A stretch of 64,000 nt of DNA from Amycolatopsis sp. NBC_01480 (GTDB taxonomy: Bacteria > Actinomycetota > Actinomycetes > Mycobacteriales > Pseudonocardiaceae). Made by a program: the position numbers and the translations under genes. Under the pieces are notes generated by a model. That model saw nothing but the letters and a program-made list of their open reading frames with translations, was not told where the DNA came from and did not search any database. The DNA is taken from assembly GCF_036227205.1 (NCBI RefSeq), contig NZ_CP109442.1, positions 8,618,001 to 8,682,000 of the forward strand, given 5' to 3'. This document shows positions 8,171-61,618 of the stretch, piece by piece. Numbering within the stretch: the stretch's first letter is position 1; each line of letters opens with the position of its first letter.

Positions 8171-8980
8171 TCAGCCGACCGCGCGCTCGCGCAGGTACGC
8201 CGCCGTCTCCGGGTCCGCCGGGTAGAACGACTCGATCACCAGCTCGGCGACGGTGACGTCGAGCGGGGTGCCGAAGGTCGCCACCGTGCTGAAGAACGTC
8301 AGCTCCGTGCCCTGGTGGAGGTAGCGCAGCGGGACGAAGATGTCGCCAGGGCCGGGCAGTTCGACCTCGGGCACCGGCTGGTCGCAGGGATAGCCGCGCA
8401 GTTCGGCCAGCAGTTCGGCGAGGCCGGCGTCCGCGGTCGCCTCGACCTGGCGGCGCAGGCGGCCGAGCAGGTGGGCACGCCACTCCCCCAGGTTCAGCAC
8501 GTTCGGCGCCATGCCGTCCGGGTGCAGGGTGACCCGCAGGACGTTCACCGGCGGCGTGAGCAGTTCCGGCGCGATGCCGTCGACGAGCACCTGCAGGCTC
8601 GCATTGGCGTCGACCAGGTTCCAGGCCCGGTCGACGACCGCGGCCGGATACGGTTCGTGCCCGGTGAGCAGCTGGCGCACCGCCTCCCGCACGGCCTTCA
8701 GCTCCGGCGCGGCCAGCTCGCTTTCGCCGTACGCGGGCGCGTATCCGGCCGCGAGCAGGAGCTGGTTGCGCTCCCGCAGCGGCACGTCGAGGTGCTCGCC
8801 CAGGCGCAGCACCATCTCGCGGCTCGGCCGGGACCGGCCGGTCTCCACGAAGCTCAGGTGCCGGGTCGAGATGTCGGCGGAGATGGCCAGGTCGAGCTGG
8901 CTGATCCGCCGCCGGTCGCGCCATTCGCGCAGTAGAACGCCGACCGCGCTGCGCGCCGGGGCCTTCACCGAAGTCGTCAC
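8171..8980 (-). CDS. XRE-family regulator with MmyB-like ligand-binding domain
   Basis: 269 residues. The N-terminal helix-turn-helix (about 13-70: LREWRDRRRISQLDLAI, STRHLSFVETGRSRPS) is joined to the MmyB-like PAS-type domain (about 95-265: AAVVDRAWNLVDANASL, FFSTVATFGTPLDVTVAELVIESFYPAD). Actinomycetes have many such regulators; several control the divergently transcribed neighbour. Here that neighbour is the SnoaL-like gene at 9164, with two related inverted repeats in between. The ligand is unknown. Confidence 0.88.
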   Translation of the reverse strand: MTTSVKAPARSAVGVLLREWRDRRRISQLDLAISADISTRHLSFVETGRSRPSREMVLRLGEHLDVPLRERNQLLLAAGYAPAYGESELAAPELKAVREAVRQLLTGHEPYPAAVVDRAWNLVDANASLQVLVDGIAPELLTPPVNVLRVTLHPDGMAPNVLNLGEWRAHLLGRLRRQVEATADAGLAELLAELRGYPCDQPVPEVELPGPGDIFVPLRYLHQGTELTFFSTVATFGTPLDVTVAELVIESFYPADPETAAYLRERAVG

Positions 8981-9014
8981 CCCCAGGACGCTACGGCCAA
9001 CGCGGAACCGGGGC

Positions 9015-9081
9015 CATTACCTTTCGGGTAATGACCCGCGGGCCGGATCCGGAGCCGCGGGCGTTACCTCCGGCGTAATCG
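9015..9081. promoter_or_regulatory. Candidate operators of the XRE regulator
   Basis: CATTACC-tttcg-GGTAATG is a perfect 7-bp inverted repeat at 9015-9033. A degenerate second copy (CGTTACCtccgGCGTAATCG) lies at 9062-9081. Both sit between the divergent regulator and SnoaL-like genes. Confidence 0.5.
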
Positions 9082-9163
9082 ACCCGGTGCCGCGCTCCCG
9101 GCAGTCTTGGCGGCAACGAGGACAGCGAACCCGTTGTCCCCCAGGAGGAACAGGAGCAGCACA

Positions 9164-9526
9164 GTGTCCGATGTGCACAACACGGTCGAGCAGTACATCG
9201 CCGTCTGGAACGAGACCGACGCCGAGCGCCGCAAGGCCCTGATCGCGGAGCTGTTCACCCCGGAGGCGACCTACACCGACCCGCTGGGCGCGGTCCGCGG
9301 CCACGACGGGATCGACGGTTTCATCGCCGGCGCGCAGGAGCAGTTCGCGGGCCTGTCCTTCCGGCTGCCCGCCGCGCCGGACGCCCACCACGACCTGGCG
9401 CGGTTCCAGTGGTACCTCAGCGCCCCGGGGGTGACCGAGCCGATCGCGATCGGCTTCGACGTGGTCGAGCTGGACGGCGGCCGGATCGCCAAGGTGCACG
9501 GGTTCCTGGACCGGGTCCCCGGCTGA
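9164..9526 (+). CDS. SnoaL-like/NTF2-fold protein
   Basis: 120 residues from the GTG at 9164, preceded by AGGAGCAGCACA. It has the compact alpha+beta cone pattern: YIAVWNETDAERR, LFTPEATYTDPLG, VRGHDGIDGFIAG, then strands ending VVELDGGRIAKVHGFLD. Family members are small isomerases, hydrolases or unknown ligand binders. It is divergent from the MmyB-type regulator, which commonly represses such a partner. The reaction is unknown. Confidence 0.82.
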   Translation: MSDVHNTVEQYIAVWNETDAERRKALIAELFTPEATYTDPLGAVRGHDGIDGFIAGAQEQFAGLSFRLPAAPDAHHDLARFQWYLSAPGVTEPIAIGFDVVELDGGRIAKVHGFLDRVPG

Positions 9527-9540
9527 GCGGCGCCGTTTTC

Positions 9541-9573
9541 CGGCGGCAGGCCCGAATCCCGGGCCTGCCGCCG
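9541..9573 (+). terminator. Hairpin terminator after the SnoaL-like gene
   Basis: A perfect 14-bp GC stem CGGCGGCAGGCCCG/CGGGCCTGCCGCCG with a five-base loop lies 14 bases after the stop. There is no T tract, as is common in actinomycetes. Confidence 0.6.
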
Positions 9574-9583
9574 GGAAAGTTAC

Positions 9584-9670
9584 GAGGTCTGGACCAGTCA
9601 GCTTTACGCCATCTGGTCCAGACCTCGAGCGGCTACATGGTCCAGACCTCGATACAGGAGGTCCGGACCA
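9584..9670. repeat. Array of four GGTCYRGACC-type elements forming two long hairpins
   Basis: Elements lie at 9584-9597, 9613-9626, 9638-9650 and 9658-9670. The first pair (GAGGTCTGGACCAG and its exact reverse complement) can form a 14-bp stem; the second pair a 13-bp stem with one mismatch. Each element holds a GGTC-N2-GACC core like operators of GntR/HutC-type regulators. No gene starts in this stretch. It lies on the minus strand directly after the glycine-riboswitch terminator. Confidence 0.6.
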
Positions 9671-9714
9671 CCTCGCGGCATCAGGAAAGAACGACCCGAA
9701 AATCCGCCTGAGAC

Positions 9715-9750
9715 AAGAAAACCCGGCGAGCCGAACGGCTCGAGCCGGGC
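9715..9750 (-). terminator. Rho-independent terminator of the glycine riboswitch
   Basis: Read on the minus strand, CCCGGCTCGAGCCG-TT-CGGCTCGCCGGG forms a strong stem with one bulge. It is followed directly by TTTTCTT, a rare real T tract for such GC-rich DNA. It lies about 20 bases beyond the second glycine aptamer. Confidence 0.8.
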
Positions 9751-9767
9751 CCTCCCCGCTCTGTCCG

Positions 9768-9965
9768 TACCCCGAGGGGCGCCTGAGAGTTTCACCCGCG
9801 TGGTGAGCCGGGTTTGCACCGTCGGCGGGATCGGCGGGTGGTCACCTGCCGATCCGCTTTCCAGAGGCGTCTGGTCCGCGCGGTCCGGGGTGCCTGAGAG
9901 GTTCCGGGGAGGAGTTGCTCCTTCGGCGCCGAGCTCGTGGATGCCGGCTCGGTCTCTCCCGCGCG
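9768..9965 (-). promoter_or_regulatory. Tandem glycine riboswitch (no gene behind it)
   Basis: Read on the minus strand, two glycine aptamers are recognisable. The conserved CTCTCAGGC occurs twice (complement of 9892-9900 and 9781-9789). GCGGGAGAG opens the first aptamer (about 9960), and GGTGCAAACC with GTGAAACTCTCAGGC marks the second. A terminator with T tract follows. Such riboswitches normally turn on gcvT/gcvP genes. Here the next 190 bases hold only the hairpin array, and beyond that the RNA would run antisense to the SnoaL-like gene. In mycobacteria gcvB (gcvP) follows the Rv1830 homologue, which is exactly the slot seen here. Confidence 0.85.
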
Positions 9966-10013
9966 GGTTCGTCGACCGCACTTCGTACTCTACCCCCGGC
10001 CCGCGGCCGATGA

Positions 10014-10595
10014 TCAGCCGGTGCGGCGGGCGTTGCGGCGCTGGGTGAGCTCGTCCGGCTCGACCGACTCGACGACCCCGCCGTCGGCGCGCTCGGCCTG
10101 GAACTCGTGGATCGTGCCGCTGATCTCCTGCATGGCGCCGCTGACCGCGATGCCGAACACACCCTGCCCGCCCTGGAGCAGGTCGACGATCTCCTCCGGC
10201 GAGGTGCACTCGTACACCGTGGTGCCGTCGGAGAAGAGGGTCACGCGCGCGAGGTCCCGCACGCCGCGCACCCGCAGGTGCTCGACCGCGACGCGGATGT
10301 TCTGCAGCGAGACCCCGGTGTCGAGCAGCCGCTTGACCACCTTGAGCACCAGGATGTCCTTGAACGAGTACAGCCGCTGCGAGCCCGAGCCGTGCGCGGT
10401 CCGGATGCTCGGGGCCACCAGTTTCGTCCGGGCCCAGTAGTCGAGCTGCCGGTAGGTGATCCCGGCGATCTGGCACGCGGCGGGGCCGCGGTAGCCGACC
10501 AGCTCGTCCGGCAACGAGGCGTCGGGGAACAGCTCGCCCTGCTCGCCGTCGGCGGCACGAACAGGCGGCCTCTCCGGACTACCAGCCTCGACCAC
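10014..10595 (-). CDS. MerR-family regulator, Rv1830 (ResR/McdR) homologue
   Basis: 193 residues from the GTG at 10595, which has GGGGAGG five bases upstream; frames extending to 10679 lack a ribosome site. After a short acidic N-terminus (GEQGELFPD), the winged MerR helix-turn-helix is clear (YRGPAACQIAGITYRQLDYWART, GSGSQRLYSFKDILVLKVVKRLL), followed by a regulatory region (VTLFSDGTTVYECTSPEEIVDLL). This matches mycobacterial Rv1830, a regulator of growth and post-antibiotic recovery. Gene order to the right (DUF151, FtsR, GarA, GcvH) is the mycobacterial order. The tandem glycine riboswitch lies immediately downstream. Confidence 0.88.
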   Translation of the reverse strand: MVEAGSPERPPVRAADGEQGELFPDASLPDELVGYRGPAACQIAGITYRQLDYWARTKLVAPSIRTAHGSGSQRLYSFKDILVLKVVKRLLDTGVSLQNIRVAVEHLRVRGVRDLARVTLFSDGTTVYECTSPEEIVDLLQGGQGVFGIAVSGAMQEISGTIHEFQAERADGGVVESVEPDELTQRRNARRTG

Positions 10596-10843
10596 GCAAG
10601 CCTCCCCTCGCCCGACCTGGCGGCCGGCGAATGACAGCCGGTCGAGCCCAGAGCGGGATCGGCCGGGGAGAACCGCCACGATCGCGCCCCAGTCAGCGAA
10701 TCACATCGTGGCGATTTACCGCCTTTGACGGTAAGCCCGAGCCGCGGGGCGGTCAACGCGACGCGCGGCGCACCTCAAGCCCGTCTTGAGCCTTTGGTCC
10801 GTTCGCCGTACGGATTGCCAGGATTTACTCAGCCGTGTTACTT

Positions 10844-10861
10844 TTTACTCATGCGAGTAAA
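10844..10861. promoter_or_regulatory. Palindromic operator overlapping a TetR start codon
   Basis: TTTACTC-ATGC-GAGTAAA is a perfect 7-bp inverted repeat whose spacer contains the ATG at 10851. A related half site (TTTACTC) lies about 20 bases upstream. There is no ribosome site before the ATG, so the transcript may be leaderless and self-repressed. Confidence 0.55.
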
Positions 10862-11492
10862 CTTCGACACGCAGGCCGAACTGGGGCTGAGCGTCACGGA
10901 GGCGACGACCCGCGCGCAGATCATCAGCGCCACCATCGCGACGATCGCCGACCACGGGTACCGCCGGACCACCTTCTCGAAGATCAAGGAGCGCGCGGGC
11001 CTGAGCAGCACGCGGATGATCTCCTACCACTTCACCAGCAAGGCCGGCCTCATGCAGGCCGTGCTGAGCACGGTGTCCGAGACCAAGACGATGTTCCTGC
11101 AGCACCGCAGCGCCGGGGTCGATCCCGGCGACCGGCCGGCCAACCTGCGCGCGCACATCGAGACCTCGGTGGCGTTCCTGCGCGACTATCCCGAGTGCGT
11201 GCGGGTGCTGGTGGAGTTCGGCGCGAACGCCGACGACGCGGACGGCTGGGCGATGACCTCGGTGCTGGTCAGCGAGCTGCGCGTCGGCGCCGTGCACCGG
11301 CAGCTCAAGCAGGGCCAGGCGGAGGGGGCGTTCGGCGAGTTCGCGCCGGAGGTGATGGCGATGTCGATCGCCCAGGCCATCGACGGCGTGGCGGCGGCGT
11401 ACGCGGCGGACCCGTCGATCGACCTCGACCGCTACGGCCGCGAACTGGCGGACCTGTTCGAGCGGGCGACCGCGCCGACCGGAAAGAGCTGA
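10851..11492 (+). CDS. TetR-family regulator
   Basis: 213 residues; the ATG at 10851 lies inside a perfect inverted repeat. The helix-turn-helix is at about residues 20-65 (TRAQIISATIATIADHGYRRTTFSKIKERAG, here broken by no gap; ISYHFTSKAGLMQAV), and the rest is the usual helical ligand domain. It is a single gene divergent from the Rv1830 homologue (171 bases apart) and ends at a 21-bp palindrome shared with the converging DUF151 gene. Ligand and targets are unknown; autoregulation through the start-codon operator is likely. Confidence 0.87.
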   Translation: MRVNFDTQAELGLSVTEATTRAQIISATIATIADHGYRRTTFSKIKERAGLSSTRMISYHFTSKAGLMQAVLSTVSETKTMFLQHRSAGVDPGDRPANLRAHIETSVAFLRDYPECVRVLVEFGANADDADGWAMTSVLVSELRVGAVHRQLKQGQAEGAFGEFAPEVMAMSIAQAIDGVAAAYAADPSIDLDRYGRELADLFERATAPTGKS

Positions 11493-13679: not shown

Positions 13680-14063
13680 TCAGCCGGCGATGAGCGCCTG
13701 GTAGGCCTCGGCTTCGAGCAGGGCCTCGAGGCCCGCGCTGTCGTCGAGCCGGATCTCCACGAGCCAGCCCTCGCCGTACGGGTCGGAGTTGATCAGCTCG
13801 GGCGACTCGGCGACCGCGTCGTTCACCGCGACGATCTCGCCGTCCACGGGCGCGAACAGCTCGGAGACGCTCTTGGTCGACTCCACCTCGCCGAACACGT
13901 CGCCGGTGCCGACCTGCTTGCCCACCTCGGGCAGGTCCACGAACACGACGTCGCCGAGCTGGTCCTGCGCGTACTCGGTGATGCCCACCCGGACCACGGA
14001 GCCCGCGCGCGTGGCGACCCACTCGTGTTCCTCGGTGTAGCGGAGTTCTTCCGGAGTGGACAA
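13680..14063 (-). CDS. gcvH: Glycine cleavage system H protein
   Basis: 127 residues. The lipoyl-lysine motif GEVESTKSVSELFAPV places the modified Lys at residue 64. The start (LRYTEEHEWV) and the SDPYGEGWLVEI block are typical. GcvH carries the aminomethyl group between the P, T and L proteins of the glycine cleavage system. No P, T or L gene is in the window, although a glycine riboswitch is present 3.7 kb downstream in the same orientation. Confidence 0.95.
   Translation of the reverse strand: MSTPEELRYTEEHEWVATRAGSVVRVGITEYAQDQLGDVVFVDLPEVGKQVGTGDVFGEVESTKSVSELFAPVDGEIVAVNDAVAESPELINSDPYGEGWLVEIRLDDSAGLEALLEAEAYQALIAG

Positions 14064-40999: not shown

Positions 41000-61618
<20,619 letters not shown>

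Follow-up and report, generated by a model that had tools for sequence, protein, structure and literature searches.

A tandem glycine riboswitch separated from gcvP in Amycolatopsis and its possible retention as a free-standing RNA

Riboswitches are generally regarded as parts of the genes that stand behind them. Tandem glycine riboswitches that are linked to genes have been described, as far as the available portions of three reports go (PMC9481103, PMC12452182, PMC8079986), and singleton glycine riboswitches have been proposed, in the accessible part of another, to arise by the decay of one aptamer (PMC6944388). From Listeria, excerpts of a further article present AspocR and Rli55 as non-coding RNAs controlled by B12 riboswitches, and SreA as a SAM riboswitch RNA that acts in trans (PMC8079631). 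A survey of the open-licence PMC literature, represented mostly by listings, turned up no description of a glycine riboswitch that persists once its gene is lost, or of any glycine riboswitch in Amycolatopsis.

Here we describe a riboswitch from Amycolatopsis sp. NBC_01480 (the source genome) that lies in a window of 64,000 nucleotides, the whole stretch of DNA that was analyzed. Its nearest counterpart is the tandem glycine riboswitch located before gcvP in Mycobacteriales/Pseudonocardiales, with which it shares the same RNA, the same genomic slot, two aptamers and, when compared with Amycolatopsis species that carry the gene, the same -10 box. It differs from this counterpart in being an orphan that lacks gcvP, and in that the predicted pairing that would compete with the P1 stem does not appear to be maintained across the orphans.

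The riboswitch locus in the source genome

A covariance search of the minus strand with the Rfam model RF00504 yielded two matches that both exceed its gathering score of 32, and by sequence and predicted structure the orphan is a member of this family (Table 1). The two CTCTCAGGC cores begin 113 and 224 nt past the stop codon of the MerR-family gene at 10014, with aptamer 1 itself beginning 43 nt past this stop, and GGTGCAAACC is likewise found at the locus. The hairpin behind aptamer 2, which ends in a TTTTCTTGT tract, is the single terminator-like site in a scan of positions 9100-10800, although the scan alone is weak evidence given that shuffled sequences are expected to produce 0.5 such sites (s.d. 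0.7). Predicted folding of the region 10010-9527 lies 7.2 s.d. below that of 100 dinucleotide shuffles. In the source genome, the 250 nt behind the riboswitch contain no start of an open reading frame of at least 35 codons on the same strand, and no glycine-metabolism or transport gene follows in cis, the next gene being the convergent SnoaL gene. A preliminary description of this DNA had named two glycine aptamers on the minus strand, a terminator with a T tract, a hairpin array and the lack of an open reading frame behind the aptamers, and each of these elements proved to be real.

Table 1. Features of the orphan riboswitch locus (positions in the window)
Feature	Position	Strand	Evidence or remarks
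XRE/MmyB-like regulator (MLTR_LBD)	8171..8980	-	PF17765, PF13560; divergent from SnoaL
SnoaL-like protein gene	9164..9526	+	PF12680; convergent with the riboswitch; also behind gcvP-A in 23 carriers having SnoaL in view
Four GGTY..RACC palindromes (hairpin array)	9583..9673	.	Candidate bidirectional terminator or operator sites
Predicted intrinsic terminator (hairpin + TTTTCTTGT tract)	9712..9750 (about)	-	Terminator scan; stem can partly pair with the 3' strand of aptamer 2 P1
Glycine aptamer 2	9751..9870	-	RF00504 39.6 bits, E 1.5e-4; same covariation test as aptamer 1
Glycine aptamer 1	9871..9971	-	RF00504 58.1 bits, E 2.1e-9; helices covary across 26 orphans
TAGAGT, probable -10 promoter box for the riboswitch RNA	9987..9992	-	TANNNT conserved at this spacing; putative start near 9980
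MerR-family regulator, Rv1830 (McdR/ResR) homologue by synteny	10014..10679	-	PF13411; upstream of and co-directional with the riboswitch
gcvH	13680..14063	-	Start of the upstream cluster, with gcvP-A once at the far end; cluster profiles TIGR00527, NF041660 and NF050798 over cut-off, PF02577

The cluster upstream of the riboswitch has the order gcvH, an odhI/garA-like gene, ftsR, a bifunctional nuclease gene, a TetR gene on the other strand, and the MerR gene. The TetR-family gene (10725-11492, plus strand) thereby sits between the MerR (McdR-like) gene and the upstream gcvH cluster. Rv1830 is named McdR in mycobacteria (PMC9040748) and appears elsewhere as ResR/McdR (PMC10336103), as given in the portions of the two sources at hand. 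The assignment of the MerR gene as the homologue of Rv1830, a name that comes from the preliminary description, rests on synteny and is supported by it. On the other side of the riboswitch, the divergent SnoaL-like and XRE/MmyB-like genes (8171-9526) stay together in many orphans and several carriers, and are perhaps a regulator-target pair. Farther along in the window are four matches (45317-45385, 50390-50458, 55394-55462 and 60497-60565, plus strand), spaced approximately 5 kb apart, to ASpks, the Rfam family for an antisense RNA to a mycobacterial pks gene. Our guess is that these reflect repeated polyketide synthase modules and not four RNAs.

Loss of gcvP-A from its ancestral slot

Among 80 named loci, which were found with the MerR protein and include at least four from genomes that are also in our genus set, gcvP lies downstream of the MerR gene on the same strand in 75, and within 600 nt in 61 of these. 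This arrangement, which the preliminary description had cited for mycobacteria, is therefore ancestral. Before gcvP in the 75 loci, there are two CTCTCAGGC cores in 69, one in five and none in one. The loci without gcvP in view are those of Prauserella endophytica, A. antarctica, A. deserti, A. thermalba and Pseudonocardia sp. N23.

Within Amycolatopsis, the riboswitch is immediately followed by a gcvP gene, which we call gcvP-A, in 52 of 80 genomes, including G026, where this gene is split over contigs. We count G044 as a 53rd carrier, since its contig ends at this point and a gcvP that scores as A-like is present on another contig. The remaining 27 genomes lack gcvP-A; 24 of them keep both cores, as judged by motif, at the slot, whereas G022 keeps one, and G005 and G073 keep none. 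There is no Rfam match at the slot in these last three genomes, and in one orphan (G006) only aptamer 1 reaches the RF00504 cut-off. A gcvP gene right behind the riboswitch in relatives had been named in the preliminary description as grounds for doubting an orphan. Such a gene is indeed common in the genus, but there is none here, and its presence in relatives together with its absence at this locus indicates loss rather than error.

Where enough DNA is in view, carriers have the order MerR - riboswitch - gcvP-A - SnoaL - XRE - AKR, and most orphans have the same order minus gcvP-A. Because the two orders are otherwise alike, the orphan state is best explained by the removal of gcvP-A alone. 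When mapped on a tree of gcvP-B and MerR sequences (supports of 84-100 around the loss nodes, apart from a single value of 64; the tree does not include A. deserti or A. thermalba), the presence and absence of gcvP-A require at least five changes by unordered parsimony, or six if loss is irreversible. The six irreversible losses fall on a clade of 17 genomes (the focal clade), on G059, on the group G072/G027/G003/G058/G054, on G037 plus G028, on G005 and on G006. By this comparison, gcvP-A has been lost from the slot five or six times in the genus.

The sole gcvP gene of the source genome lies 3.3 Mb away, is intact, and belongs to a separate old lineage, gcvP-B, that is approximately 70% identical to gcvP-A. 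This lineage is present in all 80 genus genomes, and a midpoint-rooted tree of 204 gcvP sequences groups its members in a single clade (node support 0.69). The preliminary description, which had called for a gcvP search of the whole genome, had suggested that the gene was lost or moved. The search bears out the loss from the slot, but rules out a move, since the only remaining copy is of the B lineage. Rfam matches first suggested that gcvP-B has a single aptamer. This is ruled out, since every one of the 80 genomes has two CTCTCAGG cores within 420 nt upstream of gcvP-B (region L195:478-660, for example); the second aptamer falls below the Rfam cut-off in G000 and G022, the two genomes inspected for it. 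We also observed gcvP-A in two pieces in G070 (L071) and G031 (L076), gcvP-B in two pieces in G007 (L202), and two extra partial gcvP-like matches on contig C30 of G063. Unless they are assembly errors, the split genes may mean that the redundancy of gcvP-A and gcvP-B is being lost in several species.

The palindrome array between the riboswitch and the SnoaL gene bears on the age of the loss in the focal clade. The palindromes at 9586, 9615, 9639 and 9660 make up four of the ten GGTY..RACC palindromes in the window, and the interval holds two to four such palindromes at each of the 16 focal-clade loci where both of its ends are visible (15 intact loci plus G022), although one of the two in G009 falls within the terminator hairpin. 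They occur in none of six other orphans tested, and in one of the 23 gcvP-A carriers with SnoaL in view, where the corresponding interval is mostly 11-41 nt. That the palindromes are a new feature common to the focal clade and absent from the six other orphans fits one old, ancestral loss better than many recent ones. We rejected the possibility that the array is a genome-wide repeat, as GAGGTCTGGACC has only seven copies in the genome, three at this array and four at sites without a common context, one of them apparently inside a gene. A match of the array to mir-434 (22.8 bits against a cut-off of 100) was dismissed as chance. Most of a ten-genome subclade also carries TGTGGTCAAGACCACA, whose loop is too small for an RNA hairpin and which looks more like an operator site.

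Conservation of the orphan RNAs

In the 15 intact focal orphans, the conserved stretch starts close to the -10 box and breaks off abruptly where the P1 stem of aptamer 2 ends. Over the full set of 91 focal pairs, divergence is 6.0% in the riboswitch and 34.6% in its 3' flank; among the 25 pairs with a riboswitch divergence below 3%, a selection that favors a large ratio, the values are 1.7% and 15.5% (G009 is excluded from these comparisons because of a long insert). The bases behind the riboswitch in the focal clade accordingly change six to nine times faster than the riboswitch itself. Divergence at fourfold sites within this clade reaches 0.367.

We expressed the rate of riboswitch change as its divergence divided by the fourfold-site divergence of gcvP-B. 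This ratio is 0.276 [0.203-0.363] for the focal orphans, 0.144 for four members of the G003 clade and 0.124 for the pair G037/G028, compared with 0.303 [0.210-0.399] for 27 sister carriers; a second carrier clade gives 0.274 with 19 genomes or 0.371 with 21. First-pass ratios in which gaps counted as changes were 0.287, 0.187 and 0.173 for the orphans in the same order, and 0.375 and 0.433 (21 genomes) for the carriers. G072 was excluded from both sets of ratios because its sequence did not fit the pattern used in the first pass. G059 and G006 are lone lineages, and both enter the covariation analysis described below, as does G072.

For covariation and the -10 box, we used 26 orphans, selected for the presence of both cores, of which 24 belong to the genus set and the other two are A. 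deserti and A. thermalba. Their sequences are related, so that the counts are not independent. The structure was taken from the source genome and consists of the Rfam helices, lengthened by hand, and one hairpin. Pairing is preserved in 94.5% of helix cells, and two-sided changes occur in ten pairs (58 cells). For four of the five measures used, not one of 500 shuffles attains the observed value; for the fifth, a count of further pair types, 131 of them do. Structures slid along the alignment pair at only 25-47%. An assumed U-U pair of aptamer 2 forms in none of the orphans, and pairing amounts to 63.5% in one short helix. A sigma-70 consensus promoter was not found at the locus, and we examined instead the actinobacterial TANNNT box, a motif that has been reported as the -10 element of Streptomyces lividans in the accessible part of one source (PMC8079986). 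This box is present at the same spacing, plus or minus one base, in 26 of 26 orphans and 53 of 53 gcvP-A carriers, although mononucleotide shuffling predicts it in about 5% of loci.

A member of the same clade, G022, illustrates what decay looks like. It has no Rfam match and a changed -10 box, and the P1 partner and aptamer 2 are gone, at a silent-site divergence (0.31-0.37 from six focal genomes) similar to that between intact clade members (0.31 for G000 and G033). A sequence profile trained on 26 other carriers assigns mean scores of 218.6 bits to the 27 sister carriers, 191.1 to the 15 focal orphans, 176.3 to the 11 other orphans, and 78.0 to G022. By a three-point estimate, the orphan branch accumulated 0.098 riboswitch change per 0.201 silent change, and the carrier branch 0.056 per 0.150. 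The lower profile scores and the faster stem branch indicate some easing of constraint, which perhaps dates to the time shortly after the gene loss. We read the data as a moderate relaxation along the stem, after which constraint was at an ordinary level. Furthermore, the riboswitch is missing in two of the 27 genomes without gcvP-A and decayed in one, and so it is evidently dispensable.

Candidate functions and relation to known systems

The part of the RNA that would carry out switching presents a different picture from the sensor. Pairing of the P1 3' strand with downstream sequence is higher than the average over 30 shuffles for 42 of the 53 gcvP-A carriers and for 10 of the 26 orphans, with the reservation that both counts come from related, and hence not independent, sequences. 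Mean pairing in carriers is 0.70 versus 0.61 in shuffles over 13 nt, and 0.57 versus 0.38 over the first six, whereas the corresponding values in orphans are 0.50 versus 0.59, and 0.35 versus 0.42. The hairpin region nevertheless is more stable than its shuffles in 23 of 26 orphans and 51 of 53 carriers. Despite its U-tract hairpin, the source genome has a P1-strand pairing of 0.54 versus 0.50 in shuffles, which is not above chance, and the corresponding values in G047 are 0.93 versus 0.53. As modeled, the sensor is conserved across the orphans and the switching part is not, perhaps with the exception of G047, although the U-tract hairpin of the source genome could still be gated. The claim in the preliminary description that a functional riboswitch was left behind is therefore supported with respect to the sensor and the promoter, but not with respect to the switching part.

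Because the sensor and its likely start signal are well preserved, the orphan riboswitch probably has a job of its own. On the comparative evidence, we lean somewhat towards the view that it is a free-standing glycine-binding RNA with its own promoter, retained by selection after gene loss. Its history begins with the tandem glycine riboswitch of the ancestral Rv1830-gcvP locus, which controlled gcvP-A. This gene was then removed in the ancestor of the 17-genome clade, with four or five further losses elsewhere in the genus, presumably because the second gcvP, which has its own riboswitch, covered the function, and selection would thereafter have kept the sensor. Transcription is expected to start about 7 nt past the conserved -10 box, to pass through both aptamers, and to end at the hairpin (which has its U tract in the source genome) or at the palindrome array ahead of the convergent SnoaL gene. 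The predicted product is an RNA of approximately 260-400 nt whose fold would depend on glycine and which, with no gene following, would act through the RNA itself, by trans pairing, by binding a protein or ligand, or by altered stability. A tentative extension, which we hold with less assurance, is that the ligand-bound RNA is itself the product, a glycine-binding RNA without a switch (a trans-acting small RNA, a decoy or a glycine-stabilized scaffold), in which the expression platform was dropped and only the aptamers and promoter remained under selection.

Several other explanations must be weighed against a free-standing RNA. If the switch still operates, transcripts might stop at the terminator without glycine, whereas with glycine P1 would hold, the terminator would fail, and readthrough antisense to SnoaL would lower its expression, by analogy with the B12 riboswitch and AspocR in Listeria, the precedent offered by the accessible part of one source (PMC8079631). 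Such readthrough would cross the array and run towards the XRE gene. The SnoaL gene is convergent behind the riboswitch in 23 of the 26 orphan loci examined, and both the source genome and G047, the latter with its strong pairing, have a U-tract hairpin directly behind aptamer 2 whose stem can reach the P1 strand. We nonetheless consider gated antisense transcription unlikely, as competing pairing rises above shuffles in so few orphans and is at chance in the source genome, the riboswitch is kept without SnoaL in view in three orphans (G037, G028 and G006), Prauserella endophytica and G022 have SnoaL but no intact riboswitch, and the palindrome array would have to be read through as well. The RNA might instead be a 3'-end element of the McdR-like mRNA, such that MerR transcripts enter the aptamers and hairpin as their 3' UTR and glycine tunes the 3' end or lifetime of the message. 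In the source genome, the scan shows nothing terminator-like from the MerR stop up to the aptamers, and the distance from this stop to the first core is 87-149 nt in all of the 24 intact genus orphans except G009, where it is 212 nt. A -10 box of its own in all 26 orphans would be superfluous under such an arrangement, however, G009 keeps the box and aptamers despite approximately 100 extra bases between MerR and the box, and G005 and G073 retain MerR without the riboswitch, which together make the proposal rather improbable.

It is also conceivable that the RNA has no function and is a slowly decaying relic, whose conservation is left over from recent losses. The reduced profile scores, the faster stem branch, the unmaintained switching pairing and the three genomes of 27 in which the riboswitch is decayed or absent are all compatible with decay. 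We find this account very improbable, because the riboswitch of the focal crown has a rate, relative to silent change, no higher than that of linked copies and far below that of the bases behind it, the fourfold divergence within the clade is substantial, compensatory changes and the -10 box are retained, G022 has decayed at a similar silent divergence, and the palindromes shared across the clade speak against many recent losses. Finally, the riboswitch could be the leader of an unrecognized small gene, and in G037 and G028 the XRE gene does start 88-90 nt behind the GACAGAG of aptamer 2. However, open reading frames that start within 250 nt vary among the 26 orphans in start, length and ribosome-binding site (the near relatives L120 and L121 agree, as an exception), such a site is found only in G071, G028, G059 and G027, the source genome offers no frame of 35 codons, the end of SnoaL is only 40-78 nt from the start of GACAGAG in eight orphans, and the flank is not conserved. 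With no conserved small open reading frame seen across the 26 orphans, we rejected this candidate, for which we would reserve only the faintest chance.

A free-standing RNA that is retained for its sensor would carry implications beyond this locus. Within a single genus, the sensor has parted from its gene on five or six occasions and mostly survives under selection, with 53 gene-bearing relatives available as controls. The resulting comparative set of 24 two-core orphans, one decaying copy, two genomes without the riboswitch and the 53 carriers makes it a testable question whether, and how, a metabolite sensor can become a regulatory RNA in its own right.

Several known systems share some of these characteristics, and the comparisons that follow are confined to what the accessible parts of their sources contain. 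In singleton glycine riboswitches, a conserved aptamer is tied to the kind of gene regulated (PMC6944388), whereas in the orphans both aptamers are conserved despite the missing gene. SreA offers the parallel that a terminated leader may itself be an active small RNA, but SreA retains its operon, and the gene once controlled by the orphan has been deleted (PMC8079631). AspocR and Rli55 are likewise preceded by metabolite riboswitches with a non-coding output, which for AspocR is antisense to a gene; these systems respond to another ligand, and their outputs are known, through antisense action on pocR and binding of EutV, respectively (PMC8079631). For the orphan glycine riboswitch, a non-coding output is a prediction, and its origin by gene loss is visible, which sets it apart from AspocR and Rli55.
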